Source of the DNA: Telmatactis stephensoni
Taxonomy: Eukaryota > Cnidaria > Anthozoa > Actiniaria > Isophelliidae
Assembly (NCBI GenBank): GCA_029948255.1
Contig: JALIZF010001419.1
Location: forward strand, 186,501 to 250,500
Direction: 5' to 3'
DNA length: 64,000 bases
Below, in pieces: positions 21,495 through 61,024 of this stretch (its first letter is position 1; the number at the start of each line of letters is the position of its first letter). The notes below the pieces were generated by a model. It was not told the DNA's origin and made no database searches. It worked only from the letters and a program-made list of their open reading frames with translations. A program made the position numbers and the translations under genes.

Positions 21495-21499
21495 ATATA

Positions 21500-22473: not shown

Positions 22474-23569
22474 ATGCGTAAAACTAGAACTAATTTATGC
22501 ACAATATGCTGTAAACGCATAAACTCAAATTCTAGAATAGTTAATTGTTCAGTTTGTCACCACCGTTCACACCTTACGTGCCTATCCAAAGCACACAGTT
22601 CTATTGATGCTAATGAGCTAAACCATTTATGTTGCTTATGCATAAATGACGCATTGCCTTTCGCATCATTAGATAGCGTAGACTTCCACTCAGCCATACT
22701 TGAATTACAATATGGCTTGAGCCCTTTTCACAATTTCGATAAACTCAATGGTTTAGCATTCCAGCCATTTCAAAACACATTTACTAAATCCAAGGCAAAT
22801 TTCATTGATAATTTTTGCGACCCTGATGAAAACATTTTCGCAAATGTCAATAATCTGATAAATAATTGCAAATATTACGTTGAAGATAGTTTTAAAACTA
22901 TTTTAGACAAGCCAATCAATTTTTCATTCATCCATTTTAATATAAGAAGCTTGCGAAAGCACTTTACGGATCTGGTATGCTATCTCGCTTCTTTGAAGTT
23001 TCACTGACGTCATTGCTCTGACGGACACATGGCTTAAGGAGAAAGACGATCTGGCTTCTTTAGGAATGACGGGCTACCAGGGCCCAATTGTATTAAATCG
23101 ACCGAACGAGGACGGCGGGGGAGGAATCGCTCTTTATATAAAAAACAATTATAATTTCAAGATTCGTAAGGATCTAATCTATAATAGTAATGAAAGCCAG
23201 TTCTTGTTTGTTGAAGTCAGTGGAAAGGATGATACAAGTAAGTTAGTGGGCGTCTCTTATAAACCTCCAAAAATCAACATTGACAGTTACTCAAATGTTT
23301 TTACAGAGTTATTAGATAAACTGCATAATAATACGAAGAACTGCTACATTGCTGGAGACTTCAACATAGACCTTCTAAAAAGCGAACTTAACGCTGAAAC
23401 GTATGCTTTTGTTGATACATTACTTTCCTATTCTCTTTTCCCAGTTATTATTAAACCTACAAGAATTACCAGTGAGTCGGCCACTTTGATAGATAATATT
23501 TACATGAATACCTTCCACCAAGTCGAAAACAACCTTTCTGGCATTTTATATACTGATATTTCTGATCAC
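22474..23569 (+). pseudogene. LINE ORF2 N-terminal half: PHD-type finger and endonuclease
   Basis: It starts at ATG 22474. Residues 8-55 form a PHD/esterase-type zinc finger (LCTICCKRI, NCSVCHHRSHLTC, HLCCLC). The endonuclease starts with FIHFNIRSLRKH. A small deletion near 23005 shifts the frame: the first frame stops at 23007, and the domain continues in another frame with ALTDTWL, GGGIALYIKN, CYIAGDFNIDLL and LIDNIYM. At SDH the gypsy element interrupts it, and the rest lies at 27892. The endonuclease would nick the target and prime reverse transcription. Confidence 0.85.
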
Positions 23570-23693
23570 TGTCACGATCATACTTGATATATGATACTAG
23601 TATATGTAAATAGATATGTTTGAAGAGCCGGAGAGCTCACTTGAATAAAGACACGCAAGCAAGAGTACGCCAGTGTATTTTATAATCATTACA
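23570..23693 (+). repeat. 5' LTR (124 bp)
   Basis: A very short LTR. It holds AATAAAG, a likely polyadenylation signal, about 50 bp before its end. It is followed without spacer by the primer-binding site. Confidence 0.96.
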
Positions 23694-23703
23694 TGGTGTC
23701 AGA
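23694..23703 (+). promoter_or_regulatory. Primer-binding site
   Basis: TGGTGTCAGA follows the LTR directly and would pair with a tRNA ending in TGACACCA. The gag-pol ATG begins at the next base (23704), leaving practically no untranslated leader. Confidence 0.75.
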
Positions 23704-26700: not shown

Positions 26701-27642
26701 TGTGAAACTTGTCTTCAGTCAAGAAAAAGACAGCCACGAGAACCTCTCATTCCGCTCCCCCCAACCACCGATGCTTGGAGTAGAGTGGCATGTGACCTTT
26801 TCCACATGAGTGGAAAGGACTATCTCTTGATAGTAGACTATCACACCAACTATCCAGAAGTGAGTCTATTACCTGAGATCTCTAGTGCAGCAGTAATCAG
26901 ACATACTAAATCAATATTTGCGAGACATGGCATACCAGACACAGTAATCACCGACAATGGTCCTCAATTCTCTTGCAAGGAGTATCGTGATTTTGCGAAA
27001 CAATGGGAGTTTGAGCACACAACCAGCAGTCCAAGGCACCCCAGGTCTAATGGCAAGGTTGAGCGTACCGTGCAAACGGTTAAAACCCTCCTAAAGAAGG
27101 CGACAAAATCCGGTGAGGATCCATACCTAGCCTTACTAAACTTCCGCGCCTGCACCAGTCCTGACGGCACTCCAGCACCTGCAATGGGACTCATGAAGAG
27201 AAACCTAAGGACACGCCTTCCATCCATAACTAAGGAACAGCAGAGGTCACTGAAGGCAGCTAAGCAGAAGCAATACTACGATAGAGGAACTAGGACTCTC
27301 ACAGAGATTCCAAAGGGAATGAACGTCAAAATACATGATGGAAACAGCTGGAGTATTCAGGGACAAGTACTTGAAAAGGCTGACACACCTCGATCCTACA
27401 TTGTGCAAACAGAGTCTGGCAGACAACTTAGAAGGAACCGTCAAGATCTACTGGCCGTGCCCGAGTTCCAACCACCAGCCGAGGAACCAAGACAACCCGA
27501 GTGTGACGTCCCAAGCACCTCACCCAAAGAACTTGATATCCCAAGTCCAGATGGACCGCCAGACAACCCTCAAGAACGGAGCCCATATGTGACTCGATTT
27601 GGCAGGGTAGTCAGACCACCTGTAAGATTTCAGGACACTTGA
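23704..27642 (+). CDS. Ty3/gypsy Gag-Pol polyprotein (1312 aa)
   Basis: This single frame provides capsid, protease, reverse transcriptase, RNase H and integrase. Gag occupies 1-260 with two zinc knuckles: CKYCGSSHPRGKC (218-230) and CSKCHKLNHYASVC (237-250). The protease motif is IDTGAQ (D323). The RT spans about 450-630 with FSKLDASSGYW (D536), LPFGIHSA and NDQDDIIVFG (D598, D599); the usual Tyr of YxDD is Asp here. RNase H spans about 735-860 (DASKTGLGAVM, KETLAI, DHKPL). Integrase has the HHCC finger (HEGHLGIERCK, CETCLQSRK) and catalytic D1031, D1084 (ITDNGPQF) and E1120 (NGKVER). The frame has no break. There is no env gene and no separate gag frame. Confidence 0.96.
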   Translation: MSKFRPPEPLIFEGNLADQWDRWKQQFEIYLIATESTEKAEKIKTSILLTCIGKQGLDIYNTFTFSEDDNKMKLKPVMDQFEAYCKPRKNITLLRHNFLTHKQQDGVSFDMFVTELKRRSAQCELGELRDSLVKDMIVIGVADNQLRERLLRTDDLTLDVAIKLGQAAEATKQQAVTLARPLTGSQATVDVLNLKDNSNRPQRQQQASNSSTAPSQTCKYCGSSHPRGKCPAYGKTCSKCHKLNHYASVCLSTSRSVHYANTYQSNDDSNTRNENDMEHFFIGTIENQEAVDRNNPQNDQRRNEQDWLISLQSNNTMIQYKIDTGAQANVLPLSTLRQISTVPTLEKTDTRLSAYNGSDIPIIGKTKLTINHRNQSHNVSFVVADTQSPPLLGLQTCQALNLIKRVWAVNAASPNFMQEYEDVFGELGCLEGEYHINLDPNATPVVHPPRKIPISLLEKLKTELERMCKLDVIAKVDEPTDWVSSMVIVEKDNGQLRICLDPRDLNRAIKRHHYPMPTVDEVLSKLGGATVFSKLDASSGYWQVKVDEDSAKLLAFNTPFGRYCFKRLPFGIHSAAEIFQKKVAEIIDGIGNAENDQDDIIVFGRDREQHDKALKEVLDKLRESGLKLNKKKCKIGVTETTFLGHVISAEGIKPDQRKIEAIANMPSPSNKTELQRFLGMVTYLGKFVPNLSDETAPLRQLLEKDVIWHFDERHDKAVKTLKGLVTSSPVLAYFDPVLPLRITADASKTGLGAVMEQQHSDRWKPIAFASRALTQCEQNYAQIEKETLAIVFACERFHEYAYGRPVMVRSDHKPLKAIFAKPLSKAPPRIQRLLLRLQRYDIQVEFTPGTDIPVADTLSRAYLTQYQQPEIPEEDITCHVHSVLHSLPITTAKLEEFKKETRTDATLQQLKQLIIDGCPPDKRHLPDAVKPYITYIDEISDAEGILLRGNRIIVPSSMRKEMKARIHEGHLGIERCKTRAREVLFWPGMATEIVDMVSRCETCLQSRKRQPREPLIPLPPTTDAWSRVACDLFHMSGKDYLLIVDYHTNYPEVSLLPEISSAAVIRHTKSIFARHGIPDTVITDNGPQFSCKEYRDFAKQWEFEHTTSSPRHPRSNGKVERTVQTVKTLLKKATKSGEDPYLALLNFRACTSPDGTPAPAMGLMKRNLRTRLPSITKEQQRSLKAAKQKQYYDRGTRTLTEIPKGMNVKIHDGNSWSIQGQVLEKADTPRSYIVQTESGRQLRRNRQDLLAVPEFQPPAEEPRQPECDVPSTSPKELDIPSPDGPPDNPQERSPYVTRFGRVVRPPVRFQDT

Positions 27643-27757
27643 GATACTCCAAAGTAGACTCAAGGTTATTTACCTTAGTTACTATACATAGAAACATTAA
27701 CACTTATAATCAATGACTGGAGATACTGTTTTGTTGTTACTGTTCATAAACTTCCCA

Positions 27758-27767
27758 GAAGGGGAGA
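27758..27767 (+). promoter_or_regulatory. Polypurine tract
   Basis: GAAGGGGAGA lies directly before the 3' LTR and would prime plus-strand DNA synthesis. Confidence 0.85.
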
Positions 27768-27891
27768 TGTCACGATCATACTTGATATATGATACTAGTA
27801 TATGTAAATAGATATGTTTGAAGAGCCGGAGAGCTCACTTGAATAAAGACACGCAAGCAAGAGTACGCCAGTGTATTTTATAATCATTACA
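27768..27891 (+). repeat. 3' LTR (124 bp)
   Basis: No base differs from the 5' LTR on visual comparison. It is followed by the ATCAC target duplication. Confidence 0.96.
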
Positions 27892-30063
27892 ATCACCTAC
27901 CAGTTTTTGTCATTCAGTATGCGACAGAACGTAGAAAATCTCGAGAAAAGATAACCAGATGTATTTTTTCCACTCGCGGGGCAGAAAGTTTTAAAGCTGA
28001 TATTTCAAAAGTGGATTGGTCACCTGTTTATAATTCCAATGAACCCAACGCACAATATAATTACATGATGGATGTACTTAAGAAAACATACGACAAACAC
28101 TTTCCCATAAAAACAATCTCAGTCAAATCCACAACTAAGGATCATCCCTGGATTACCACAGGAATTATAAAATCGATAAAAATGAAAAACAAATTATACA
28201 GAACAAAACTCCAGAATCCTACGGCAAAAAATATCGAACCCTTCCGTAATTATCGTAATAAATTGAATCACCTAATTAGGTTTACAAAAAAGGAATACTA
28301 CAATACATTAATCACCAAAGCTCGCGGGAACTTGAAAGCCACTTGGGAAATAATTAACGAATTGCTAAACAAAAAGAAAAAGAATACAAAATGCCCTTCT
28401 AACGTTACATACAATGGAAAGCGTTATGACAAAAAATCTGATATTGTTAACATCTTCAATAGGTTTTTTACCAACATAGGATCTTCGCTAGCAAAGAAAC
28501 TACCACCAAGTAAATTGTGTTCTAATAACTGGTTGAAAGATACTTCTCCTGTTGAGCTTAAATTTCAATCCGTGTCACCTTTTAAAGTCTTAGACCACCT
28601 GTACAGCCTCGATTGCTCGAAGTCTACAGGTCATGATGGTATTCATGTAAAATATCTATTAATGATAGCCGAGTCAATTTATCAACCACTTTGTTTTATT
28701 TTCAACACTTCTATAGTGACTAGTACTTTCCCAGACATGATGAAAATAGCCAAGATAATCCCACTTTTTAAAAGTGGTGATAACTCCGTTGTCACCAATT
28801 ACAGACCTATCTCTCTTCTTCCAACTCTTTCAAAAGTATTTGAAAAAATAATATGCGAATTCAATTTGGTTTCAGGAAAAAGAGAAACACAACTTTTGCC
28901 ATTCTAGATTTCGTAAATAGAATCATAGACTCAATAGATGCAGGGAATTTTTCCATAGGTTTCTTTCTAGACTTATCCAAAGCTTTTGATTCGCGATTGA
29001 TCACAATTTATTGTTACGCAAATTACCTTATTACAGGATCAACAATGGCACTAAGGCTTGGTTTGAGAGTTATTTAAAAGACAGGAAGCAATATGTTTCT
29101 ATTGATGGGGTGGATTCTGATCTTCTACCTATTTCCTATGGTGTTCCTCAAGGTTCCATCCTCGGACCTATACCATTCCTAATCTTTATAAACGATGCAA
29201 AATACGTAACAAAACTCATACACCTAGTATTATACTCTGACGATATGAATTTGTTTTTCAGTCATAAAAGTTTAACATCTACCTTATCTGTTTTAAACAG
29301 TGAGTTAAACTCGCTTCAAGAATGGCTACTGGCAAATAAATTAACTGTCAACATTTCAAAGACAAATTTCGTCCTATTCGGTTCAAAACAAAAGCTCAAA
29401 GACATTGAGCAAAATCTGACACTAGAGCTAATGAAACAACCAATAAGTCGAGTTTCATACATAAAATTTCTTGGAATTATAATTGATCAACATTTAACAT
29501 GGGACTCACACATTGACTTCATCTCGCGAAAAATCGCTAAAACAATTGGTATACTATATAAAGTCAGGCACTTTCTAAACATCGCCATTCTTAAAAACCT
29601 CTATTATAACCTGATTTACTCTTATGTTTCTTATGCTACATTGATTTGGGGTAGCAATTACAAATCGAAACTTAAGCGTATTCACGTTCTCCAAAAGCGT
29701 GCCCTCCGCGTTATCTCTTTCGCGGATAGAAGAGCCCCGAGTAGGCCGTTATTTCAGAAGCTTGATGTCTTAAATATCTTTGAAATAGTGAACCTTCAAC
29801 TAGGTGAGCTAGCATATCAACACAATACGAACTGTCTACCAGATATCTTTGCCGACTATTTCACTGATTTATCACAAGTACACAACTACAATACTCGTTC
29901 TAAATCAAATAAAAGTTTCTTTCTACCTAGACAAAATTTAAATTATGGCAAATTTGGCGTTTAATACGCCGCCGCTAAGATCTGGAATGATATTCCTATT
30001 CATATAAAAAATAGTACGTCCATTAAGACCTTCAAAAAAATTACAAAAAACACTTCATTGATA
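27892..30063 (+). pseudogene. LINE ORF2 C-terminal half: reverse transcriptase, broken
   Basis: It continues the endonuclease after the gypsy insertion (HLPVFVIQYATERRK). The RT palm begins with KIIPLFKSGD and NYRPISLLPTLSKVFEKI. Near 28857 the frame changes and the usual linker of about 20 residues before QFGFRKKRNT is missing, so this is a deletion. A second frameshift follows SKAFD near 28996. The rest is in one frame: YGVPQGSILGP, LYSDDMNLFF (catalytic YxDD, normally YADD), FLGIIIDQHLTWDSHI and NYNTRSKSN. A TAA at 29962-29964 interrupts before YAAAKIWNDIPIHIKN. At least three independent lesions are seen. Confidence 0.88.
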
Positions 30064-31627: not shown

Positions 31628-32965
31628 GATACAGCAATACCACGATACAGCAATACAACGGATACAAGGCGATACAACGAATACAGGCGATACGAACGAT
31701 ACAGGCGATTACAGGATACAACATACAGGCGAATACGAACGATACAGGCGATACGAACGATACGAGGCGATAGCCAACGCTACAGGCGATAGACAGCGAT
31801 ACAGGCTATAGCAGGCGGATACAGGCGATACAACGATACAGGCGATACAACGATACAGGCGATACAGCGATACAGGCGATACAACGATACAGGCGATACA
31901 GCATACAACGATACAGGCGATACAACGATACAGGCGATACAACGATACAGGCGATACAACGATACAGGCGCATATACAACGATACAGGCGATACAACGAT
32001 ACAGGCGCATACAACGATACAGCGCATAACAATCGATACAGCAATACATCGATACAAGCAATTACATCGATACATAATACAACAATACAGACGATAAAGC
32101 AATACAACGATTACGGCCATCACAACGATACAGCAATACAATACAGCAATACGACGATACAGCAATACAATACAGCAATACGACGATACAGCAATACAAT
32201 ACAGTAATACCACGATACAGCAATACGACGATACAGTAATACCACGATACAGCAATACCATGATACAGCAATACCATGATACAGCAATACCACGATACAG
32301 CAATACCACGATACAGCAATACTACGATACAGCAATACGATGATACAGCAATACAACGATACAGCAATACAACGATACAGCAATATAACGATACAGCAGT
32401 ACAACGATACAGCAATACAACGATACAGCAATACCACGATACAGTAATACCACGATACAGCAATATGACGACATTACAGCAATACGACAATACAGCAATA
32501 CAACGATACAGCAATACAATACAGCAATACCACGATGCAGCAGTACCACGATACAGCAATACCACGATACAGAATACAATACAGCAATACGACGATACAG
32601 TAATACGACGCCGGATACAGTAATACGACGATACAGCAATACCACGATATAGCAATACAACGATACATGCGGATGTACAGGCAGGATACAAAGATAAACA
32701 AGACAGAGGCGATACAACGAAACATACAAAAAACAAAAACAGGGCGGATACAAAAAATAACAAAATATACAAAAATGACATACAGGCGATACAAACGATA
32801 CAGGCGATACAACGATACAGGCGCTACATAACTGATACAGGTGATACAACGATACAGGCGATACAAGATACAACGATACAGGCGATACAAACGATACAGG
32901 GCGATACAACGATACAGCAATACAACGATACAGCAATACGACAATACAGCAATACGACATTAATC
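31617..32965. repeat. GATACAGCAATAC-type minisatellite, right block
   Basis: Same unit vocabulary as 19258-21494: CGATACAGCAATACCACG, AGGCGATACAACGATAC. It is degenerate near 32660-32790. The reading frames through it are artefacts. It is the continuation of the left block, displaced by the LINE. Confidence 0.95.
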
Positions 32966-34930
32966 CCCACTGGAAGTTTGTTAGGTATGTGGTCAGATGA
33001 ATGCAAAGATCCAAATACAAATTGGATAACAAATTAAATGTGTAAGTTTAGCCCCCCCCCAAAAAAAAACAAAAAACAAAAACAAAAAAAAACCGTATGC
33101 TTATAATACCAAAAGTGGTGATCAAGTTGTCAAGTGAAAAGGAATGACTCTGATGCCAAAAACAGAAAAGTTTCTTCAAATAAGTACAATGTTAAAGTTA
33201 TTACAGATGGATCATATTATCTTTAAATATGTTATTAACCTTATCATTTTTCATTTACTTATATTATTGTTATGTATTTCCTTTTTTACAAATGTTAATG
33301 TATATATAGTTTTATTACTGGCCTGCCTCGATTAGTTTCCTTTACTATTTGCAGCCCAGTAGAGTAATGTAAATCTGTATTGTTTTCTATAAATAAAAAT
33401 TGACCTTGACCTTGATCAGTTTAGACAAAGTTCCAGTTGAATATGACAAATCCAATGTACGAGATAGAAAATCGAAACAAAGGCAGAAGAATATTCCATC
33501 TTGTAAAAGCATTTTAAAAAGATGAAATAAAGGTTGTGGATAAAACTTTTAATAATTTGTTTGAAGGTTTGTGTATATTAATACTTTTAATAATCTCCTG
33601 TCAGTCTTGCTATGTTTTTCAGACCCAGTCATTGTATTGACTCTGCAGTTGTTCACAATTCTAATGAATAGAAAGCAAATTGAAGCCCACCTAATGCTCC
33701 AAAACTGCTTTGATCCATACAAGTAAACCATATATTATTGTCCTTCTAACAGACTAGATATTGCAGAACATAACATTTTGATTGTTTAGTCTTCATAATT
33801 ATGGTTTTGTATGTTTTCATGTGGAATACAGTAGGCAGTACTGAATGTTCCTTATACTTATGCAAGTATTGTCTTGGTTTATTTTGAGTGCAAAACAACA
33901 GTTCTCTAGCTCTTAAATGTTATTAGATGCAAATTGAAGAAAGATATAGAAAATCAATTATTTGGCATACAAAATAGAAAGATCACAAGGAATACAGCAT
34001 TTCCAATTTAGATTGAAGATCAGATTTCTGAACAACTCTACTTTACATGCAAGTAACTGCACCTTTTTGCTGTCAATTTCTTTATTGAAAATATTATAGA
34101 CCTAAACTTGAGCTGTAATTACACAGAGAGAATGAAATATATTTTCAATGAAAAGGGAAGTTAATTTTAAAACTGCCTAATTACTGTAATTAACGATCCG
34201 ATTACACGTGTTAGAATCAGTTTTTTGAAGTTTTTGTACCAAACGTTTGAATATTGGGCAGTTTTACCACAGAAATATTTATTTTTCAATATTCATAAAT
34301 TCTAAATGAAAAATACATCGTCTAATAGGTACAAGATACGTTTTAGCATCACATTTTCTTTTATTATGCATGTCCTTTACCCGGCTTGAAACGTTTTTCT
34401 TCAGTTATTGTCTTTCAAAGCATAAAAGTCCTTTTCGTTCAAATTTTGCAGACAACTCTTGTTTTCCAACTTTGGAGGGATTGTTAAGCAGTTCTACCAA
34501 AGGCATCTTTACGAAACGCGACATACATAATCATCAATGACTCAGTTATACGAGGAACTTTTTTGAAGCTACAAATCCATCAACAGAGTCTACCAGCCTT
34601 GAAAATGTTCGTTGAGTTTTTCGTCTTTCAAGCAGTATTTGAAACGACACAGTTACGAAAAAAAATCCAAACGTACGATTTCTTTGCTCAAAAACGTTGA
34701 GATTCATAAAGATGAATGTCCGTGAAAATCTTCAAATTTTTATGAGGTTTTCAGAAATATACTTGGAAGTTTTTGGTGTAAAAACTGCAAGCAAACCTGC
34801 TGAAATCTCCTTCTTTTACCGCCATGTTGAAGCTATGCCACGCCACCGTGACGTCGCATCGCAGACATCACTGTACCCGTGACTGCGATAGCAGAACAGT
34901 ATTTTACCACACGGCTCACAGCAAGGCTCA
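32966..34930. other. Non-coding AT-rich stretch
   Basis: No gene is recognised. A C9/A9 tract lies near 33052-33090. At 33385-33420 the sequence AATAAAAATTGACCTTGACCTTGATC looks like the polyadenylation signal and short-repeat tail of another LINE, of which only about 280 bp upstream might belong to the element. From 33430 to 34810 I see only unique-looking DNA. Confidence 0.45.
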
Positions 34931-36689: not shown

Positions 36690-39600
36690 AATGTATGCCG
36701 GGCGAATGGAGAATACAAAATCAACGCATGTTCTTTTTTAGAGTATACACTTTCTTAGAGTTCAGTGATTCACTATTAACATATGTTAAATTATTGTGTC
36801 GGGCATACACTTGTAAAAAAAAGCGAGATAACGACAAGCTACTTGGGTATATTTTTTATTTCCAAACGATAAATGTAATATTTCGCTTCCATATATTTCG
36901 GATGATAGCCGAAATATCATATTTATCGTTTGGAAATAAAAAATATGAACAAGTTGCTTCTCGTTATGGAGAAACAATCGTCAAGCTCAAAACAGATCGA
37001 AACCTTGTCAGATCTTAGTGCTGAAATCGGCAATCAATTCAGGTCCCCAGATTGCAACAGGGCCGGGTGAATGGAGAATACAAAATCAATGAATGTTCTT
37101 TTTTAGAGTATACACTTTCTTAGAGTTCAGTGATTCACTGTTAACATATGTTAAAATATTGAGTTGGGCATACAATCGTAAAAAAACACGAGTGTACGAC
37201 AAGCTACTTGTTTATATTTTTATTTCCAAACAATAAATGTAATATTTCGCTACCATATATTTGGAGGCCCAAAATATCATATTTATCGTTTGGATATCAA
37301 AAATATGAACAACTGGCTTCTCGTTATGGAGAAATAATCGTCAAGCTCAAAACAGATCGAAACCTTGTCAGATCTTAGTGCTGAAATCGGCAATCAATTC
37401 AGGTCCCCAGATTGCCGGGTGAATGGAAAATACAAAAATCAATGCATGTTCTTTTTTAGAATATATAATTTCTTAGAGTTCAGTGATCCACTTATTAACG
37501 GCATATGTTCAAATATTAATTCGGGCATACACTTGTAAAAAAACGATATAACGAGAAGCTACTTCTTTTTATTTTTTCTTTCCAAACGATAAATATAATA
37601 TTTCGCTACCATATATTTCGGATGATAGCCGAAATATCATATTTATCGTTTGGAAATCAAAAATATGAACAAGTGGCTTCTCGTTATGGAGAAACAATCG
37701 TCAAGCTCAAAACAGAACGAAACCTTGTCAGATCTTAGTGCTGAAATGGGCAATCAATTCAGGTCCCCAGATTGCCGGGTGAACATATCGAGATGTTATC
37801 AGATCTCAGTGCTCGAATCGACATTCAATTCAGGTCCCCAGATTGCAACAGGGCCGGGTGAATGGAGAATACAAAATCAGCAAATGTTCTTTTTTAGAGT
37901 ATACACTTTCTTAGAGTTCAGTGATTCACTATTAACATATGTTAAAATATTGAGTTGGGCATACAATCGTAAAAAAACACGAGTTAACGACAAGCTACTT
38001 GTTTATATTTTTTCTTTCCAAACGATAAATACAATATTTCGCTACCATATATTTGGAGGCCGAAATATCATATTTATCGTTTGTAAATCAAAAATATGAA
38101 CAAGTGGCTTCTCGTTATGGAGAAACAATCGTCAAGCTCAAAACAGATCGAAACCTTGTCAGATCTTAGTGCTGAAATGGGCAATCAATTCAGGTCCCCA
38201 GATTGCCGGGTGAATGGAAAATACAAAAATCAATGCATGTTCTTTTTTAGAATATACAATTTCTTAGAGTTCAGTGATCCACTTATTAACGGCATATGTT
38301 CAAATATTAATTCGGGCATACACTTGTAAAAAAAACCGATATAACGAGAAGCTACTTCTTTTTATTTTATATTTTATTTCCAAACGATAAATATAATATT
38401 TCGCTTCCATATATTTCGGATGATAGCCGAAATATCATATATTTATCGTTTGGAAATCAAAAATATGAACAAGTGGCTTCTCGTTATGGAGAAACAATCG
38501 TCAAGCTCAAAACAGATCGAAACCTTGTCGGATCTTAGTGCTGAAATGGGCAATCAATTCAGGTCCCCAGATTACAACAGGGCTGATAACATATCGAGAT
38601 GTTATCAGATCTCAGTGCTCTAATCGACATTCAATTCAGGTCCCCAGATTGCAACAGGGCCGGGTGAATGGAGAATACAAAATCAACGGATGTTCTTTTT
38701 TAGAGTATACACTTTCTTAGAGTTCAGTGATTCACTATTAACATATGTTAAATTATTGTGTCGGGCATACACTTGTAAACTGAAAAAAAAGCGAGATAAC
38801 GACAAGCTACTTGGGTATATTTTTTATTTCCTTTTTCCAAACGATAAATGTAATATTTCGCTTCCATATATTTCGGATGATAGCCGAAATATCATATATT
38901 TATCGTTTGTAAATCGGCATAAATATGAACAAGTTGCTTCTCGTTATGGAGAAATAATTGTCAAGCTCAAAACAGATCGAAACCTTGTCAGATCTTAGTG
39001 CTGAAATGGGCAATCAATTCAGGTCCCCAGATTGCATCAGGGCCGGGTGAATGGCAAATACAAAATCATCGCATGTTCTTTTTTAGAGTATACACTTTTT
39101 TAGAGTTCAGTGATTCACTGTTAACATATGTTAAAATATTGAGTTGGGCATACAATCGTAAAAAAACACGAGTGTACGACAAGCTACTTGTTTATATTTT
39201 TATTTCCAAACGATAAATATAATATTTCGCTACCATATATTTGGAGGCCCAAAATATCATATTTATCGTTTGGATATCAAAAATATGAACAACTGGCTTC
39301 TCGTTATGGAGAAATAATCGTCAAGCTCAAAACAGATCGAAACCTTGTCAGATCTTAGTGCTGAAATCGGCAATCAATTCAGGTCCCCAGATTGCCGGGT
39401 GAATGGAAAATACAAAAATCAATGCATGTTCTTTTTTAGAATATATAATTTCTTAGAGTTCAGTGATCCACTTATTAACGGCATATGTTCAAATATTAAT
39501 TCGGGCATACACTTGTAAAAAAACGATATAACGAGAAGCTACTTCTTTTTATTTTTTATTTCCAAACGATAAATATAATATTTCGCTACCATATATTTCG

Positions 39601-42600: not shown

Positions 42601-44640
42601 ATCAGATCTCAGTGCTCTAATCGACATTCAATTCAGGTCCCCAGATTGCAACAGGGCCGGGTGAATGGAGAATACAAAATCAACGGATGTTCTTTTTTAG
42701 AGTATACACTTTCTTAGAGTTCAGTGATTCACTATTAACATATGTTAAATTATTGTGTCGGGCATACACTTGTAAACTGAAAAAAAAGCGAGATAACGAC
42801 AAGCTACTTGGGTATATTTTTTATTTCCTTTTTCCAAACGATAAATGTAATATTTCGCTTCCATATATTTCGGATGATAGCCGAAATATCATATATTTAT
42901 CGTTTGTAAATCGGCATAAATATGAACAAGTTGCTTCTCGTTATGGAGAAATAATTGTCAAGCTCAAAACAGATCGAAACCTTGTCAGATCTTAGTGCTG
43001 AAATGGGCAATCAATTCAGGTCCCCAGATTGCATCAGGGCCGGGTGAATGGCAAATACAAAATCATCGCATGTTCTTTTTTAGAGTATACACTTTTTTAG
43101 AGTTCAGTGATTCACTGTTAACATATGTTAAAATATTGAGTTGGGCATACAATCGTAAAAAAACACGAGTGTACGACAAGCTACTTGTTTATATTTTTAT
43201 TTCCAAACGATAAATATAATATTTCGCTACCATATATTTGGAGGCCCAAAATATCATATTTATCGTTTGGATATCAAAAATATGAACAACTGGCTTCTCG
43301 TTATGGAGAAATAATCGTCAAGCTCAAAACAGATCGAAACCTTGTCAGATCTTAGTGCTGAAATCGGCAATCAATTCAGGTCCCCAGATTGCCGGGTGAA
43401 TGGAAAATACAAAAATCAATGCATGTTCTTTTTTAGAATATATAATTTCTTAGAGTTCAGTGATCCACTTATTAACGGCATATGTTCAAATATTAATTCG
43501 GGCATACACTTGTAAAAAAACGATATAACGAGAAGCTACTTCTTTTTATTTTTTATTTCCAAACGATAAATATAATATTTCGCTACCATATATTTCGGAT
43601 GATAGCCGAAATATCATATTTATCGTTTGGAAATCAAAAATATGAACAAGTGGCTTCTCGTTATGGAGAAACAATCGTCAAGCTCAAAACAGAACGAAAC
43701 CTTGTCAGATCTTAGTGCTGAAATGGGCAATCAATTCAGGTCCCCAGATTGCCGGGTGAACATATCGAGATGTTATCAGATCTCAGTGCTCCAATCGACA
43801 TTCAATTCAGGTCCCCAGATTGCAACAGGGCCGGGTGAATGGAGAATACAAAATCAGCAAATGTTCTTTTTTAGAGTATACACTTTCTTAGAGTTCAGTG
43901 ATTCACTATTAACATATGTTAAAATATTGAGTTGGGCATACAATCGTAAAAAAACACGAGTTAACGACAAGCTACTTGGGTATATTTTTTCTTTCCAAAC
44001 GATAAATACAATATTTCGCTACCATATATTTGGAGGCCGAAATATCATATTTGTCGTTTGTAAATCAAAAATATGGACAAGTGGCCTCTCGTTATGGAGT
44101 AATAATCGTCAAGCTCAAAACAGATCGAAACCTTGTCAGATCTTAGTGCTGAAATGGGCAATCAATTCAGGTCCCCAGATTGCCGGGTGAACATATCGAG
44201 ATGTTATCAGATCTCAGTGCTCGAATCGACATTCAATTCAGGTCCCCAGATTGCAACAGGGCACATAAAAGATCGAAATCGGCTTATCAGATCTCTATTC
44301 TCAAATAGGCAATCAATTCAAGTCCCCAGATTGCTATAGGGCCGGGTCAATGGAAAATACTAAATCACCGAATAATGTTTATAAGAGTATACACTTTCTT
44401 AGAGTTCATTGATCCGGCACTTTTATAATATTTTATTGCTGAAAAAAATTCTTAAACTATTCAATATCCTTTTGAGCGGAAAAAATAGTCGTCAAGCTTA
44501 TGACAGAACGAAATTTTACCAGATCTCAGTGCTCGAATCGACAATCACTTCCGGTTCCCATATTGCAACAGGGCTCATAACAGATCGAAATCGGCTAGTT
44601 ATGGCAGCGTATAGCGACGTGCCGGACTCACTCAAGTAAC
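36690..44640. repeat. Satellite with a higher-order repeat of about 1181 bp
   Basis: The basic monomer is about 360 bp and carries CAATCAATTCAGGTCCCCAG. That motif recurs near 40195, 40272, 40658, 41019, 41376, 41453, 41838, 42199, 42558, 42636, 43018, 43378 and 43738. From 40195 the spacing 77-386-361-357 repeats, which is a higher-order unit of 1180-1182 bp. Three consecutive units (40195-43738) are nearly identical; another lies at 38560-39742, followed by a shortened unit of about 453 bp. The edges (36690-38500, 43740-44640) are more diverged, as in alpha-satellite-like arrays. Reading frames of 60-187 codons are by-products of the repeats. Confidence 0.95.
37584..37653. repeat. Conserved stem-loop within each satellite monomer (example)
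   Basis: CCAAACGATAAATATAATAT followed by TTCGCTA pairs with TAGCCGAAATATCATATTTA plus TCGTTTGG, giving a stem of about 27 bp with one mismatch and one bulge around a loop of about 17 nt. It recurs in about 20 monomers of the array and in the outlier at 49085-49155. Confidence 0.9.
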
Positions 44641-50985: not shown

Positions 50986-52155
50986 TTATGCATCTGACAA
51001 CACTGATTTTGCATAAGTGAAAACACTAGCTATAGGCTTTTTATAATATCGAGCAAAGCAGCATTCAGACGACCATCCTGCAGTCTTCAAGATGTCATCT
51101 AGATTAGCAGACGCCCTACTGGCTGCTGAAGTAGAAGCTGCCCTGGTACTGTGGGGAGAGTAGATAGATATATTGATTCCAGCTTGAGCCATAACTTCTC
51201 GCACCCACCTAGTTATAGTATCTCTACTTACAGGCTTGTAAGGTTTTACATAACTTATAAGTAACTTCGAGTTAGTGTTATCTCTAAGAGCTTTGGTTCT
51301 TGCAATATATTCTCTCAATGTAGTTACAACGCAAATACATGACTTTTCAAAAGGTTCAAGAACAACCCGAGGGTTAGGTAATCCTGGTTTGCTTTGTTTA
51401 ACATGGTCTGGAATAACAAAAGTAACTTTGTTCTGAGACTCAAACATGTTTTTAACATCTAACATATGAATAGTCTGGCCCCTCTGGCCAGTAACTAATA
51501 ATAATAACATGACAAGCTTCAGGGTAAACTGTTTCAGAGTTAATGTCTCAACTGGGTGCAGTGTACCCAAGTACTTTAGTACTACTTGAACATCCCATAT
51601 CTCCTTGTACTTTGACCTGGGTGGTCTGGATTGAAAAATCCCCTTGAGTAAGCGTTGAACAAGTGGGTGTTGTCCAACACTCTTTCCATCAGATACTGTG
51701 ACATATGTAGAAATTGCACTTCTTGCAGTGTTAATAGCACTGTATGTAAGTCCCTGTTTGTAAAGCTCAGAGAAGAAATCAAGAACCTGTCCTATAGATG
51801 GCTGAAAATGATTGACTTTCCTTTCAGCACAAAACAGTGTCCACCTTTTAAGGTAGCTTGAATATTGTTTTTTGGTACCTTCTCTCCATGATTGCATGAG
51901 TAATCTGGCAGCTGCCTCTGATACTCCCTTTGCTTGATAGTGTTCCCTGACAATGAACATGCCATCATCTGGAGCTTGTTCTTCAAGGGGTGTTGAGCTC
52001 CTGAGTGTGGGAGAGTGAGCAGTTCTTTCTGATGTGGGAGCATCAGAGGAGCTGCTACAAGGAGGCTGAGTACTTGGGGCCACCAGACCTGTGTGGGCCA
52101 GACAGGAGCTATCAACAATGCATTTCCTTGTTCCTTCTCTAACTTCTGGAGACAT
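50986..52155 (-). CDS. DIRS tyrosine recombinase (about 389 aa)
   Basis: It inserts the circular DNA copy by site-specific recombination. The N-terminal SAM-like/core-binding region (about 75-185) has QSWREGTKKQYSSYLKRW, and the catalytic domain is at about 200-389. Visible catalytic residues are R225 (TGQRGQT), H335 and R338 (SPHSTRAAS), W361 and Y370/Y371 (CCFARYYKKP). This is the R-H-R-(W)-Y set of tyrosine recombinases. The first 60 residues are low-complexity and overlap the RNase H frame (to 51792) in another phase, an arrangement common in DIRS elements. The start is uncertain. The frame is unbroken. Confidence 0.9.
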   Translation of the reverse strand: MSPEVREGTRKCIVDSSCLAHTGLVAPSTQPPCSSSSDAPTSERTAHSPTLRSSTPLEEQAPDDGMFIVREHYQAKGVSEAAARLLMQSWREGTKKQYSSYLKRWTLFCAERKVNHFQPSIGQVLDFFSELYKQGLTYSAINTARSAISTYVTVSDGKSVGQHPLVQRLLKGIFQSRPPRSKYKEIWDVQVVLKYLGTLHPVETLTLKQFTLKLVMLLLLVTGQRGQTIHMLDVKNMFESQNKVTFVIPDHVKQSKPGLPNPRVVLEPFEKSCICVVTTLREYIARTKALRDNTNSKLLISYVKPYKPVSRDTITRWVREVMAQAGINISIYSPHSTRAASTSAASRASANLDDILKTAGWSSECCFARYYKKPIASVFTYAKSVLSDA

Positions 52156-53778
52156 CTAGAGATGAGACAAAATGGGGGAAATATGTAAACAAACTTATCA
52201 CCCCAAGATATAGAGAATGCATCTACATGCATAGCTCCTGGATCTGGTTTCCAGGAGACATACTTTGGCAACTGGTTGTTTAGCCTTGATGCAAAAAGAT
52301 CAATCTCTGGAGTTCCAAGTTTGTCAGTAATCTTGGCAAAGATTTCTGGCTTTAAATGCCACTCAGTTCTCACATTAAATACCCTAGATTGTTTATCTGC
52401 TTCCACATTGAGAACACCTGGAAGGTGGCATGCAGTTAACCAGATATTATTTTGCATGCAGAGCATCCACAGGGATTTTGTAAGTGAATTACACTCGATG
52501 GATTTTGTACCTCCCATTGCATTTATATAGCAAACTGTAGTAGAATTATCACTTTTAATAGCAACATGGTGTCCCTTTAGTAAAGAGAGGAATGATTTCA
52601 CCCCAAAGAATACTGCTAGAATTTCAAGTTCATTGATATGCTTTTGTTTCTCTTCAGGGGACCACATCCCTGTGCAGCCTGTCCATTGCACACTGCCCCC
52701 ACCCTGTTTTGGAGGCATCTGTTGCCATTTCAATATCTGGGTTGTTAATGGAAACACTCTTATAAGCTCCTGGTAGGTGAGCAACCCACCAATTCAGATC
52801 ACTTCTAGAGTCATTTGACAATGTCATGGGTGCTTCAAAGTTTCCATTATTAAGTTTCAAAGCCTTATTCTTATCTATTTCTATGTTTCTATAGAACAGG
52901 GCCCCATACTGGACTCCTGGCAGAGAAGACACTAATAGCCCAATAATTTGAGCAACCTCTCTTATAGTGGTCAACATTTTCTTTAACAGTAGTTGGCAGG
53001 CTGAGACTATTTTGTCTGCTTTTTCAGGTGTAAGATATACTCTCATCTGAACAGAATCTAAGATGAAGCCAAGAAAGGACAACTTTTGACAAGGTTGCAA
53101 CACTGACTTTTTAGAATTTATAATGAACCCCAATGACTCAAAGAGCCTCTGTGTGGCCAAAATGTTGTTTGTGCATTCCACAACTGAGGACCCCTGTATA
53201 TAAGAGTCACCAATATACCCTACATTTAGGTATCCCTGACTACGCAGAGTAGAATACACTGGCTTTAAGAGTTTTGTGAAATATCTCGGTGCTGATGCAA
53301 GTCCATTTGGAAGACAAGTATATTGAAAAAGGTTGTTTCTCCAAATGAATCTTAAAAATTTTCTGTGTTCTATTGCTACAGGCACAGTATAATATGCATC
53401 AGTGAGGTCTATGGAACCCATATAACAGTTTTTCTTCATTAATTGTATGGCACATGTTAGGCTCTCCATTTTGAAATGGATGTACTCTATTGACTCATTG
53501 AGTCCTTTCAGGTTGAGAATCATTCTATAAGAGCCATTTTTCTTTTTCCTAAGGAAAATGTTAGAAATAAACTAAGTGTCAATGGGGATAGCTTCTTCAA
53601 TTACCCCTTTCTCTAGTAATCGGTTTACCTCACAATCAATTATTTCAGCCTCATTAGGGCTAAATCTCATAGATGGTATAGGATAGTTTTGCTTTGGGGT
53701 TTCAATAAATTCAAGATGACAGTGTTGCACCATGTCTAATATTTTCTTGTCTGAGGTAAGGTTTGTCCAAGCTGACAA
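51792..53778 (-). pseudogene. DIRS reverse transcriptase and RNase H, broken
   Basis: The RT N-terminal part (53778-53572) contains MRFSPNEAEIIDCEVNRLLEK and stops at a TAG (53571-53569). It then resumes in the same frame: MILNLKGLNESI, GSIDLTDAYYTVPV (first catalytic Asp), LPNGLASAPRYFTKLL. The catalytic box reads YIGDSYIQG where YIDD is expected, so one catalytic Asp is Gly. RNase H begins MATDASKTGWG. Near 52690 the frame shifts, and the rest (52784-51792) has INELEILAVFFGVKSFL, IKSDNSTTVCYINAMGG and the DIRS-typical EIDLFASRLNNQLPKYVSW. Nonsense, frameshift and active-site loss make it inactive. Confidence 0.9.
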
Positions 53779-55850: not shown

Positions 55851-57357
55851 ATTTTTTTCACTGAATTCTAAACTTAGTTTGCTATTTCTACATGTTTAAA
55901 AGAATTTCAATAGAGTCGTTCTCATTAACCCGTGGAACACACCTTGGCGTTTTATTCTTTACTACACTTTATTACACTTTCTCTGTTATTTTATCCACGA
56001 GCTAGTAACAAAAATATTTGCATATGAATTTCTTTTTATTGAAGTAACTCAGCAACGCTTTATTAGTCTAATACAACTGTAACAGGTTAATTATTTGAAT
56101 CAACTCATTTATTACATAAATATCGATTATTATATGCCTTCATTTATTTTATCCATGAGACTTCAACTCGGAGAGAAAGAACACAATACCCATGTAAATA
56201 TAGAATTGCTACCAGGAAAATACTAATCTACTAGATCATTCGTTTTCATGAAAGCTCCTGATAGCAAATTTTTCTTACAAGCTGACTTTGTAATATGTTA
56301 ACATAATTTTAAATGGGGGTACTGTTATGTCCTGTTCTACCAGCGGACATTCAAATTAAAAACACCTCCGCAAGAACTACAAAACTTGTCCTCTTCTGCG
56401 TTGCACTTTGACACTTTGCAATATGGACAGTAATCCTGGTCGGATGTAAAGACCCTTGGCATCATACTTGACAGCTGTTTACTCGATTCCGGTTTGGCTC
56501 ATCAGTTGCAAATTGACTACTTGCTGCATTAGGACTGTAGAAAGACAAGAGGTTTGGCTCTGCAGATGACTCCACTGGTTCCAGCTCTTTTTCCCTGACA
56601 GTTGCCAAGATGTCGGCAAGAGCGCTTGCCTTGACATCAATTTGCCCTACACTGGATAACACACTCTCGTATGTTATATATGTAGGTCTTGGTGATGAAT
56701 CACACTCCTCAGTCAGATCTATTGCACTCGACTTCTCAAACGATGAAGCATGTTCGTCCGTCAAATCGATGGCACTCGCCATTTCCAGTGTTTCATTTGT
56801 CGCTTCATCCTCTGCCTCGACTGGTTCTTCTAATATGCACTGCACCACTGCATTGAGATCTCCCTTTTCACGGGTCAGTAATGCCGCCGATTTCACATCA
56901 GAAGCCGAGGGCAGAACCGATTTTAGTTGCTCCAATTTATCTTCAAAGTGCGATGGCTGAATTACCCTCTGATTATAAAGCAAATGCGCTGGAAGTGGTG
57001 CTTGAACGAGAGGCAATGCTTTTGATTTTAGGTCTTCTGTTTCATGCTTTTCTACCCTTGGTTCTTGTTGGTGAAGCTATATAGCTGTTTTTAACACCGT
57101 CAAGGGACTTAGCCCCGGAGAAGAGGTGGCTATCTCTTGAGAATACATATTTATGCTGTTGTAAAGGGCTTTGTGCTTTTCCAGCTGAAGCATTTGCTTA
57201 GCTGAAAATATAAGAAAAAATGTGTTCATAGCATTCACTGATTTTAGCCATAGGATAAGCCAGAGTCTAGTTGTGTTAAAAGAAGAAAGAAATAATACTA
57301 TAACAGAATTATATCTAAAACAGTTCGGCCATGAAAATTAAATTCAGTAGGGTTGAA

Positions 57358-58191
57358 CAGGGGCGTACAGGGGGGGGGGGGGGGGGGGGTTGTCTTTGTC
57401 ACGGATCACGAAAAATAAAATCGAAAAATCCCGAGTCACGGGACGCCAGTTCAGATTTTCCCGAATCACGAAAAAAAACCGCCCACCCACAAGCATTTAT
57501 CAGAAACTTCGTGCATGTTGGTAGTTACTGTGTTAATTGCGAAGGTCTTACTACCATCTTTGGACTTCAAAAGACGACATAATTTTACTTCGATTAGGGT
57601 GCCCAGTCCATGCTTCTCAGCCTCAACTTTGAGTCCACAAAGCTTTGTCAACTTTTTAACAAAGTTTTGAAGACATGTGTCTTCAATAAATTTCAGCGGA
57701 ACTCGCAGGCTTTCTTTGCCCAGATGGATTGGGACAGCTATCTCTCTCGAAGGATTTAAATAGAATATAATGCTCTCGAACATTGGCTCCGCCATCACTA
57801 CAAATACGCGTAAGCTGTAACTGGTAATTTGATGACGATCGGTAGCTGCGGGTGAGCCCGGAAACAATACAACCAATCATATAGCCTGCATAGTGCCTAG
57901 TCCAGTTGCAGATTAACTTATTTTGACAAACAACAACGTTATGGGATCATTCTGTCATCTATCAATAAGTTTATGGTTAACTCAACGGTAAGACATTCGA
58001 TAATTGGATAAAAATCCCGAAAAATACATCCAAAAATCACGGATATCGAATAATTATTTCGGCTTTTCACGTGTCACGAGAGAAGTGTCATGCACGGATC
58101 ATGATCACGAGAAATGATTTATTAGAATCCCGAATCACGAAAAACAAAAATGCCCGATCACGCGTCACGAGAAAACCCCTGTACGCCCCTG
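57358..58191. mobile_element. Small TIR element (834 bp), 6-bp target duplication
   Basis: CAGGGGCGTACAGGGG opens it, and the exact complement CCCCTGTACGCCCCTG closes it. GTTGAA flanks it at 57352-57357 and 58192-58197. A run of about 20 G follows the left TIR. Motifs such as GAATCACGAAAAA recur near both ends. A 136-codon frame at 57466-57876 (-) has no recognised domain. It lies in the intron of the DM gene. Confidence 0.85.
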
Positions 58192-58226
58192 GTTGAAAAA
58201 CACACTAGCCCAATCTGGTGAGTCTT

Positions 58227-58733
58227 TAGTCCAGTCCCAGACTCTCTTTCTTGCCGCTCCAGGACTCGCGGAGAAAGAGAGTCCAGTATAACTTGCATGC
58301 GCATGTGCAAAATGAGCCAATCAATTAATTAATTAGTATTTTGCGAGTTTGCAATATGCAAATGTCAGTGTTTGGTAGCAGTGGTAGTGATGCGTATCGA
58401 AAAATTCACAAATACGTCTTTCACAACTGTCCATCCGTAAATGGCCTGTAACTGCTCAAACTTTGGTAAAAGATTATAATTGGTTTTTCCAAGTGCATAG
58501 CTCACTGAATCAACAAATGGCTTTCCGAAATGAGACTGATATCGTGTATACAAAACACTTTCTTCTTCAGCCATCTTGAATCATTAGATGACTTTAGGAT
58601 TTGTAACCACGCGATCACCACATGAATGTGGTGATCGCGTGGTCACTAAACTGACATGCGCATGCAAGTTATACTGGACTCTCTTTCTCCGCGAGTCCTT
58701 GAGCGGCAAGAAAGAGAGTCTGGGACTGGACTA
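58227..58733. mobile_element. MULE-like MITE (507 bp), 9-bp target duplication
   Basis: TAGTCCAGTCCCAGACTCTC opens it, and the complement closes it. The arms are about 82 bp. GTGAGTCTT flanks it at 58218-58226 and 58734-58742. A 66-codon frame at 58365-58574 (-) starts MAEEESVLYTRYQSHFGKPF and ends within the element. It may be a captured exon, but I do not recognise it. Confidence 0.88.
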
Positions 58734-59351
58734 GTGAGTCTTGGGAAATTCACTATCTGAATATTATGGCTTCTTTCTTTCTTTTTTTTTTTTTTTTTCG
58801 GTAATTTTATTTCACTTATGGGTACAGAATAATTGTAAACTTACTAATCATTTCATCAGGTATGCAAACAATTTCATATAATATAATATGATATATAATA
58901 ATCACGTTCTACTAGTATTGTGCACAGTGAATGAAGATTGAATTGAATATTAATAATATAATATATAATAATATACATTTACCCTTTCGTTTTTCGGCCT
59001 GGTCTTTTTCTTTTCGACAGTAGCTTTGGCATCTTCGAAGTTTGCAATCTGGAAAGCCAGCATTGCATTTTGTCCTTGAGCACCCCCGTCGCAGACAGAC
59101 ATTTCTGGAAATGGTGTTGATGACACTGTGGCAGTGCTTGACGGCTTGGACAGAGTATGAGAAAGAGCGCGCCTCCACTGTTTCCCCTTGTCGTTCTTTT
59201 CGTCTCGGAGAGTATTTTTGTGTGCCAATACGTGGTCGTGACTTGCACTCTTATTACATGTACAATTCGCATACGGGCATACTCTTTTATGACCTTTTAG
59301 AACTTCAACTTGTCCATGCAAACGACATTTGGTACAAGTTCTAGTGGACAT

Positions 59352-59830
59352 GACTGAAGAAACCTTCGCTGATAGCTTTCGACCTCTCTTTCGCAAAATT
59401 GGTAATAACTGTGAACTTGTGTGTCGTGTATAAAGCTTTTTATAGATGTAGTGCAAAATCAGCTGTAAGCCGTTGGGTGCACGAAACAATCGGTTATGTT
59501 TATATTCAAGGCATTTTCATGAGTATTCAATCGCTATACCGAGAAAGTAAGAGTTGTTAGATTTTTTTGTCAACTCAGTACAAAAAAAGAGCGATTATTG
59601 TATGTCTCATGGGTGTTTCCAATGTCACACCCCTACAATAAAAACAAAACAAAACAACATCAAAAAACAATAACAAATGCTTTGTGAAATATTTGAATAA
59701 AACAATATTAACAACTGGCCTTTCGCTGCCATTTATAGAATTATTCGTTAAAAAAAAAACACTGCAGACTGAAATGCACAAACTACTGAGCTAGAGCACA
59801 GGCAATTCGAAACGTGAGTTAAACCGAGCG
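59352..59830. promoter_or_regulatory. Shared intergenic region of the DM and transposase genes
   Basis: 479 bp between two divergent start codons, so both promoters must lie here. The plus strand shows no clear TATA box near 59831. The adjacent minus-strand DM frame stays open upstream of its ATG to about 59489, so an upstream start cannot be excluded. Confidence 0.5.
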
Positions 59831-60839
59831 ATGCCCTGGCATTTAAATGAAAAAGGTGGTTGCTACAGGTATGGCTGCATTTATCCGTCGCAGAAACGAC
59901 TTCAGGTTATCGTTACTTATCTGACCACGCAGTCCACTGCTAACACGGCAAGAATCGGCCAAGTATCTTACAGCTGTGTTGATAAATTTGTAAAATTGTT
60001 TCAGCAAAAAGTAACGTTAGCACCATCGAATAACAACAACGCAAGACCAAAGAAAATAGAACGGTGGATGGAAGCGTACTTGAAGGCTTTGGTTATAATA
60101 TATCCAACCATGTATCTCCGTGAACTGCAGCAATTACTTGCCCTTGACTTCAATTTAGCCCCAAGAGATATTCTCTCCGTTCAGACGATAGCCAGACTAT
60201 TGACCGAGCTTCGTGTAACCCGAAAGAAATGTGTACATGTCGCTCTAGAGCGAATGTCTTCATATAATCGATATTGCCGTCAACTATTCGTTCAGTGGAG
60301 GATAACAATCAACCCAACTCGCGTATATTTTTTTGACGAAAGCTGCTTAAATAGCGAAACCGATAACAGAGCATATGGGAAAACAGATTTTGGAGTCGCA
60401 TGTCCATCCTTTAGGCCGAAGAGTCAAGCTCGTACTGGGAAATTTTCCGTGCTCAGTGTTTGCGGTTTTATAGAAGGAGTTGTACAAGTGATTCCTATTG
60501 CTGGGAATTGCACAGCAGATATCATAATTGAACCTATTGAAAACCAAATATTGCCATTGCTACCAAGAAATGTATTTCTAGTTGCCGACAACGCTAGCGT
60601 CCACAATGAGACTCTGTGCAATTCTACGTCAAAGAAACATCACACTTGTTAAATTACCGGCGTATGCGTATGACCTGAATCCCATTGAAATGATATTTAG
60701 TCAAGCTAAGGCTATCGCACGTTCTACTCCTGGATTTATTGCTCAAAATCCCATGCTTGCTATTGTAAATGCTTTTCAACAGATAAGCGCTCTAAATGTC
60801 AGGAAATTCTATCAACGTTCGTGGAAAATCGCAGTGTAG
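59831..60839 (+). pseudogene. Tc1/mariner-superfamily DDE transposase, one frameshift
   Basis: The ATG at 59831 opens a 273-codon frame to 60652. An N-terminal helix-turn-helix (KRLQVIVTYLTTQSTANTAR, VSYSCVDKFVKLF) is followed by a second DNA-binding region (YLRELQQLLALDF). The catalytic core has VYFFDESCLN (first Asp) and VFLVADNASVH (second Asp). After a frameshift near 60615 the domain continues to 60839 with LVKLPAYAYDLNPIEMIF, giving the third acidic residue (NPIE). The spacing of the second Asp to Glu is about 33-34 residues, as in Tc1-like DD34E enzymes. With the frameshift it is inactive. TA target duplications agree with this family. Confidence 0.88.
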
Positions 60840-61024
60840 TAACTTAGGAACTAATAAATTGCAGAAATTGTAATCTTGCAGTTGTTTCTTTAATGAATAT
60901 GAATTTGAAATTTTGTGTGGTGGGCAGAGTATTTAACCAACAGCACTATTACACCCTCATACACTTTGTCACTCCTTTCCTATTACACTTTAATTTGTTC
61001 TACGGGTTAATGAGAACGACTCTA

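Follow-up and report, generated by a model that had tools for sequence, protein, structure and literature searches.

The window considered here is a stretch of 64,000 nucleotides from the actiniarian Telmatactis stephensoni (contig JALIZF010001419.1, positions 186,501 to 250,500 of the forward strand), which holds at 55913-61022 a Tc1/mariner-type element of about 5.1 kb whose 27-bp terminal inverted repeats (TIRs) are enclosed by TA duplications. The left TIR (55913-55939, plus strand) and the right TIR (60996-61022, minus strand) were defined by inverted-repeat comparison, the TA target-site duplications at 55911-55912 and 61023-61024 were read from the sequence, and with TA counted in, the two arms (55911-55939 and 60996-61024) are 97% complementary across 29 nt. 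Between the TIRs lie a transposase gene on the plus strand and, divergently on the minus strand, a two-exon gene encoding a DM domain, here called the accessory gene. A preliminary description of this DNA had placed such a TIR pair, a DDE transposase and a divergent two-exon DM gene at this position; its coordinates proved exact and both genes are there, and the DM match reaches 42.3 bits, above the Pfam cut-off of 27.

Both genes of the window copy carry lesions, which, like the insertions in the intron described below, the preliminary description does not mention, and the copy is dead; it is very probably a decayed member of a clade of cut-and-paste transposons, within IS630-Tc1-mariner, whose elements carry two genes. 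The TA duplication and terminal inverted repeats of that superfamily are found in the window element and in 14 of 14 other copies described below, and the habit of carrying the transposase as sole gene is not followed, as the DM gene adjoins it in the window and in the same 14 copies. A transposase as the only gene is typical of animal members of Tc1/mariner. This content does not define IS630-Tc1-mariner, however, since the TBE and Tec elements are described as carrying more genes in the portions of PMC7325037 and PMC4724952 that concern them.

The transposase

The transposase gene (59831-60839, plus strand), delimited from open frames, Pfam matches, relatives and fold, is frameshifted near 60.6 kb, and its pieces match DDE_3 just below the cut-off (23.7 and 26.7 versus 28.6), with intact 337-aa relatives such as P0004 carrying PF13358. 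In an alignment of 26 sequences, D253 and E288 are invariant and D169 is present in at least 90%, so that a DDE/D triad is in place; 34 residues separate D253 from E288, and the enzyme is therefore of the DD34E kind, which is the Tc1-type spacing.

The preliminary description had missed a Pax-like N-terminus, seen in the window as a paired DNA-binding domain at 59843-60202 (plus strand; 20.6 bits, just below the cut-off of 22). From its N-terminus, the family profile of the transposase aligns through 125 residues with paired domains in the PDB, covering these domains over nearly their full length (E 1.4e-9 to 1.4e-7), and the only PDB matches of this profile at E<=0.01 are paired domains, from four sequences (Prd, Pax5, Pax6 and Pax8). 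A structure model of the transposase (mean predicted local distance difference test score, pLDDT, 77.7; predicted template modelling score, pTM, 0.55) matches Mos1 with E 8.6e-11, yet with a template modelling (TM) score of 0.34 across the whole chain; it also matches the catalytic domains of Sleeping Beauty and Metnase (TM up to 0.69 of the target) and the paired domains of Pax6 and Pax5.

The DM accessory gene and its protein

Exon 1 of the accessory gene (58983-59351, minus strand) was delimited by comparison with intact families and with a copy on contig C604, and in the window copy its frame is lost before the donor. The C604 copy has the flanks of the window on both sides; it was considered as an independent insertion and rejected as such, and it is the window's insertion on the other haplotype or in a duplication. 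Exon 1 encodes the DM zinc module (59250-59342, minus strand), in which the eighth zinc ligand is Ser instead of Cys in the window copy, the C604 copy retaining Cys. Alignment with the intact families puts the intron (57202-58982, minus strand) at a GT-AG phase-1 site, and in the window copy it is enlarged by nested insertions recognized by inverted-repeat comparison: an element with perfect 16-bp inverted ends (CAGGGGCGTACAGGGG) at 57358-58191, and a fold-back element with 87-nt arms, 95% complementary, at 58220-58740, a stretch (about bases 58220-58740) that is absent in the alignment of the window with C604. Exon 2 (56337-57201, minus strand), whose splice position also comes from alignment to intact families, has one stop and one frameshift in the window copy.

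Exon 2 encodes a CUE-like three-helix domain (56825-56944, minus strand) and a C-terminal zinc ribbon (56340-56429, minus strand; CPYC...FCSSCGG...NVRW, by sequence reading). The CUE model gives 12.5 bits in the window against a cut-off of 21.1, and 21.6 bits, just over it, in the intact relative P0002, through which both the CUE match and the three-helix bundle are established. The region had been announced as CUE/DMA-like: that label is partly right, the CUE half being borne out by Pfam, and PF03474 (DMA) is absent among the 18 Pfam families listed at E<=0.1 for 24 members, with CUE there instead. The zinc ribbon was also found where predicted, though in another frame in the window copy, and its four Cys are invariant in 7 of 7 aligned sequences.

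Uninterrupted spliced models of 337-398 aa were obtained for the accessory genes of five families, with family F left outside by breaks in exon 2 and family G known from partial copies only. In these five families a single phase-1 GT-AG intron stands at the same place, and the protein runs in the order DM domain, helical hairpin, CUE-like domain, zinc ribbon. All 11 members compared match PF00751 (the first at 50.1 bits against the cut-off of 27), and all eight DM zinc ligands are kept in 11 of 11 sequences of the alignment; beyond the zinc module, the next segment is unlike its counterpart in host DMRTs. Several families have a VIDLTD motif in the accessory protein, which we take to resemble a small ubiquitin-like modifier (SUMO)-interacting motif. 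A Foldseek search with the whole exon-2 protein returned no match at E 0.001 or better.

Copies and families across the genome

The 483.5-Mb assembly (1782 contigs) was searched with the DM exon, which gave 71 places (69 after merging neighbours), and with P0004, which gave 123 (104 after merging); match counts are lower bounds, only the best candidates having been scored. Sequences were taken for 30 of the 71 DM places, 30 of the 123 transposase places and 8 of 40 matches to the element ends. Copies could be read end to end in four other families, which are the 14 copies in which both ends were read: six of family B (~3.9 kb), two of family C (~3.65-3.7 kb), three of family D (~3.2 kb) and three of family E (~3.05 kb). 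In all 14, TA followed by GAGT... stands at both ends, the outer flanks differ, and DM and transposase matches both lie inside the TIRs, so that the multiple copies with both genes between TIRs to which the preliminary description had looked for support do exist, in different surroundings. The six family B copies are 98.4-99.9% identical to each other, and family B has therefore probably moved recently on a genomic time scale. Taken together, the copies almost certainly represent a two-gene transposon family.

Ends also occur by themselves: in three of six loci with end matches only (L003, L006, L007) they lie 124-197 bp apart, as in miniature inverted-repeat transposable elements (MITEs), and a regular expression for MITE ends gave no matches. 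An automatic TIR search recovered the known pair in the window element only, its other hits being chance ones save for a perfect repeat on C667, where 30-nt inverted repeats stand near both genes of the family F copy (C667:45625-48478).

The pairing of the two genes extends well beyond these copies. A transposase lies within 6 kb of 49 of the 69 merged DM loci, divergently in 47, and in 36 of these 47 divergent pairs a gap of 350-610 bp separates the matched stretches; for any one transposase, the probability that a DM match falls within 6 kb by chance is about 0.2%. The Pfam DM model itself finds at least 88 matches in the genome, 87 over the cut-off, which were divided by score, in a split of our own making, into 13 host-type matches (59.8-90.1 bits) and 75 weaker ones (25-53 bits). 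A related transposase lies within 25 kb of 59 of the 75 weaker matches and of 0 of the 13 host-type ones; under 6 kb, these 59 pairs comprise 47 divergent and five convergent ones, and at 6-25 kb four convergent, two divergent and one tandem. A single host DMRT locus was thus ruled out as the explanation by the many DM loci across the genome (69 merged loci, 88 Pfam matches), and the gene is multicopy and not one locus syntenic with a host DMRT.

One DM match, at C1:3778414-3778536, has no related transposase within 25 kb and sits on a long branch next to the first group of transposon DMs (86/73); it could be a domesticated copy. When a second transposase query, P0041, was used and its matches were looked through only, no further lineage was seen beside DM matches; a short piece found by this query lies on C177, ~2 kb from a DM match.

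Constraint and shared history

Synonymous sites are saturated in 10 of 10 pairs of accessory genes and in 15 of 15 pairs of transposases, and nonsynonymous divergence (dN) is 0.55-0.86 for the former and 0.27-0.48 for the latter. Because synonymous sites are saturated while dN stays lower, these values argue for purifying selection on both genes, and, by sequence comparison, for an accessory gene that evolves faster than the transposase. The check for purifying selection proposed in the preliminary description thus indicates constraint on both genes, and the ratio omega is not computable with synonymous divergence (dS) saturated. Trees of the transposase and of the accessory protein, built with a partial transposase for family H, without the family G accessory gene and with long branches flagged in the accessory tree, agree on the groups (E,F) and (A,B,C,H). 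The DM accessory gene has stayed with the transposase through deep divergence.

A second, convergent transposase lineage

Another set of DM-bearing transposases, at 34-44% identity, shows a different layout. All seven full-length members (C571:246427, C739:144512, C178:499515, C186:363253, C362:249293, C1096:42517 and C231:482409) have a DM match on the opposite strand 3' of the gene, that is convergently, at 2.6-18.8 kb; six partial transposases of this lineage have no DM match within 25 kb. The three DM exons of the lineage that were read form their own group in the tree, and the lineage possibly consists of larger elements with further cargo. Family G (two copies) is also convergent. Among transposases at 30% identity or less, 0 of 19 full-length ones have a DM match within 25 kb. 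These observations fit a single gain of the DM gene before the split of the two DM-bearing lineages, and two separate gains may also have occurred.

Relatives in other hosts

Spliced relatives of the accessory protein are annotated in Exaiptasia (P0061) and Actinostola (P0063), and in both of them the two exons meet where the splice was predicted; P0003 is without a DM domain, yet spans the predicted exon junction. The Exaiptasia diaphana record P0061, which bears the public name DMRTA1, reads like the spliced accessory protein of a transposon of the family C type, and cnidarian DMRT annotations can thus be transposon genes. Transposase-like pieces occur in Exaiptasia and Actinostola records as well (P0056, P0057). 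One of these, the gene model P0056 of Exaiptasia diaphana (AIPGENE15269), ends in a piece of this transposase and is either a fused model or an exonized element. The named hosts of relatives are three hexacorals (Exaiptasia, Actinostola and Desmophyllum).

Proposed working and rival readings

In the proposed scheme, the transposase would bind the TIRs through its paired-like domain and would cut and paste at TA. The DM protein, which in most families would be transcribed divergently from a spacer shared with the transposase, would serve as the element's own DNA-binding partner or regulator, a role comparable to that of the Myb-like protein, which assists the transposase in PIF/Harbinger elements; the CUE-like domain of the DM protein would tie it to host ubiquitin. 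That the accessory protein works in transposition or its regulation seems somewhat better than an even bet; coupling to ubiquitin through the CUE-like domain is a more tentative suggestion.

Several observations weigh against a regular two-gene transposon family of this kind. Gene order varies, family G and the 34-44% lineage being convergent, and for 16 of the 75 weaker DM matches no related transposase is present within 25 kb, some of these 16 perhaps being divergent host genes; one of the 75 is tandem to a transposase at 23 kb, and six others are 6-25 kb distant. Conversely, 5 of 41 full-length close transposases lack a Pfam-model DM match within 25 kb; for one of these five, on C188, the DM exon finds a match 9.1 kb away, and two others, on C3 and C900, share a 1.65-kb stretch with TIR sequence at one end only. 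The zinc ligands are not universal, the window copy being without one and the Actinostola protein P0063, which lies outside the alignment, without another. Consensus DM half-sites are not enriched in four of five elements, and that the DM protein binds the element encoding it therefore stays a prediction; in the family B element there are 8 half-sites versus 2.5 expected (p about 0.03, uncorrected). Finally, three pairs among the 13 host-type DM matches have equal scores, and the near-identical copy pairs C351/C371 and C511/C594 may each be two haplotypes of one place, so that the genome counts would overstate the number of independent copies.

The decay of the window copy and the 16 weaker DM matches that stand alone could also be read as a chance neighbourhood, in which a family of DMRT pseudogenes ended up next to a mariner element by accident and was copied along with it on a few occasions. 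This reading was rejected on the association of 59 of 75 weaker matches, versus 0 of 13 host-type ones, with a transposase; the single intron place and the TIR-TA boundaries held across families at 31-43% protein identity to family B, and the saturation of synonymous sites, speak against it too, and we regard it as extremely improbable. A weightier alternative is that the DM protein is a passenger acting on the host, for example as a silencing suppressor or a germ-line mimic of host DMRT, and no transposition factor. In its favour, the VIDLTD motif and the CUE-like domain suggest that the protein contacts host modifiers, and own-site enrichment is missing in four of five elements; against this, the accessory genes that other cut-and-paste elements carry are usually helpers of transposition, and a host-acting passenger is considered unlikely, although far less so than chance neighbourhood.

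Origin of the DM module

The preliminary description had left it between capture of a DMRT-like gene and a life of DM modules as transposon DNA-binding proteins, and had proposed a DM tree to see whether transposon DMs nest within host DMRTs. A tree of 10 host DM sequences of this genome, DMRT1 (PDB 4yj0) and the transposon DMs was built from 53 columns, unrooted and without an outgroup. Under LG+G4, a single branch (81/85) separates the hosts from the transposon DMs, and under LG+I+G4 one divergent host sequence, C110, stands on the transposon side. The transposon DMs are thus not inside one canonical host paralogue, and the placement of C110 shifts between runs; with 53 columns and no outgroup, the tree shows neither capture nor transposon origin.

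Evidence of another kind slightly favours capture, in which an early anthozoan Tc1/mariner element took a host DMRT, with its DM and CUE/DMA-like C-terminus, once, and retained it as useful to the element, for example by germline-timed expression. DMRTs of the DMD-4/DMRT3 kind, as presented in part of PMC7538159, pair the DM domain with a ubiquitin-binding CUE-like DMA domain, and because this two-domain plan is common to them and to the transposon proteins, common descent of the whole gene is favoured, most simply by capture. Three results sit less well with it, namely that the transposon DMs are not nested in one canonical host paralogue (81/85), that Pfam gives CUE and not DMA among the 18 families listed for 24 members, and that the segment after the zinc module is unlike that of host DMRTs. 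On the opposite course, DM modules would be DNA-binding proteins of transposons in the first place, and DMRT genes would descend from an accessory gene of this kind. This view could draw on the one branch that separates host DMs from those of transposons, on the occurrence of DM matches next to transposases of two lineages that differ in gene order, and on the Pax-like domain within the same element, for which there is a precedent, the Pax paired domain being held to derive from a Tc1/mariner transposase in the relevant part of PMC8290160. The 53 columns, the 81/85 support, the missing outgroup and the move of C110 count against this view. DMRT genes occur animal-wide, whereas the named hosts of the element are three hexacorals, and transposon origin is accordingly judged improbable. 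Slightly less probable still is its fullest form, that the DM module began as the accessory DNA-binding protein of a Tc1/mariner lineage with a Pax-like transposase; if true, DMRT and Pax, both of them hallmark regulator families of animals, would go back to a single jumping-gene lineage.

Other repeats in the window

The rest of the window holds further repeats. A Helitron-like region (720-12672, minus strand) includes an open reading frame (ORF) of 2236 aa (5962-12672) with Helitron_like_N and a PIF1 helicase, and an ORF with an RPA-type OB-fold at 720-1502. A 1318-aa open retroelement polyprotein (23686-27642, plus strand) is Gypsy-like by reading only and is flanked by ORFs of the long interspersed nuclear element (LINE) kind, resembling an endonuclease (22997-23587) and a reverse transcriptase (28990-29964), the whole spanning 22997-29964 (plus strand); simple-repeat arrays that are open in several frames (YNDTTIQ / RCIAVSLY) stand on either side of these retroelements, at 19390-21605 and 31806-33047. 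Near-identical ORFs (PKYHIYRLEIKNMNKWLLVM...) lie ~6 kb apart at 37629-38099 and 43606-44190, and a DIRS-like pair at 50986-53571 (minus strand) consists of a tyrosine-recombinase ORF (50986-52155) beside a reverse-transcriptase ORF (52654-53571).

Significance and comparison with known systems

DM domains, treated as a signature of animal sex-determination regulators, abound in this genome as transposon proteins, the 75 weaker matches (59 with a transposase within 25 kb) outnumbering the 13 host-type ones. The elements add a two-gene architecture to animal Tc1/mariner elements and offer a concrete route to testing the origin of DMRT or the exploitation of DMRT by transposons. Among the papers listed in searches of the open-access full-text literature, partly aimed at DM together with transposons, none names a DM-encoding transposon in its title or displayed abstract; Repbase and most subscription papers lie outside these searches, so that an earlier entry is possible. 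The main text of a metazoan survey of transposon-derived transcription factors is without DMRT, DM domain, doublesex or PAX (PMC10027918), and a reverse case is reported in PMC9250109, where coding sequence of the frog gene dm-W arose from a noncoding segment of a DNA transposon.

The elements described here share with the Tc1 (DD34E) branch, including Sleeping Beauty, the TA duplication, short TIRs, DD34E spacing, the Mos1/Sleeping Beauty catalytic fold and a bipartite paired-like DNA-binding region; they differ in being 3.0-5.1 kb long and in carrying a conserved, intron-containing DM gene. PIF/Harbinger elements likewise pair their DDE transposase with a second, DNA-binding protein, but belong to another transposase superfamily, use Myb/SANT instead of DM, and make another target duplication.

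Closer in superfamily are the ciliate TBE and Tec elements, which, according to the sections of PMC7325037 and PMC4724952 that describe them, are Tc1/mariner elements with a DD34E transposase and accessory genes, TBE having a zinc-finger/kinase ORF and three ORFs under purifying selection. They differ in their ciliate hosts and three ORFs, with no DM domain mentioned in those sections, and in TIRs of about 80 bp for TBE (most with telomeric repeats) and 700 bp for Tec (PMC7325037; PMC4724952). On the host side, DMRT factors of the DMRTA/DMD-4 type also have this DM zinc module at the N-terminus, down to the eight ligands, and a CUE-like domain, which binds ubiquitin in DMD-4 and human DMRT3 in the account given in part of PMC7538159; the transposon genes, in contrast, are multicopy and TIR-enclosed, are assigned CUE and not DMA by Pfam, and have an extra helical hairpin and zinc ribbon. 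The PAX paired domain, in turn, has its counterpart in the N-terminus of the transposase, where it is then followed by a DDE catalytic core.

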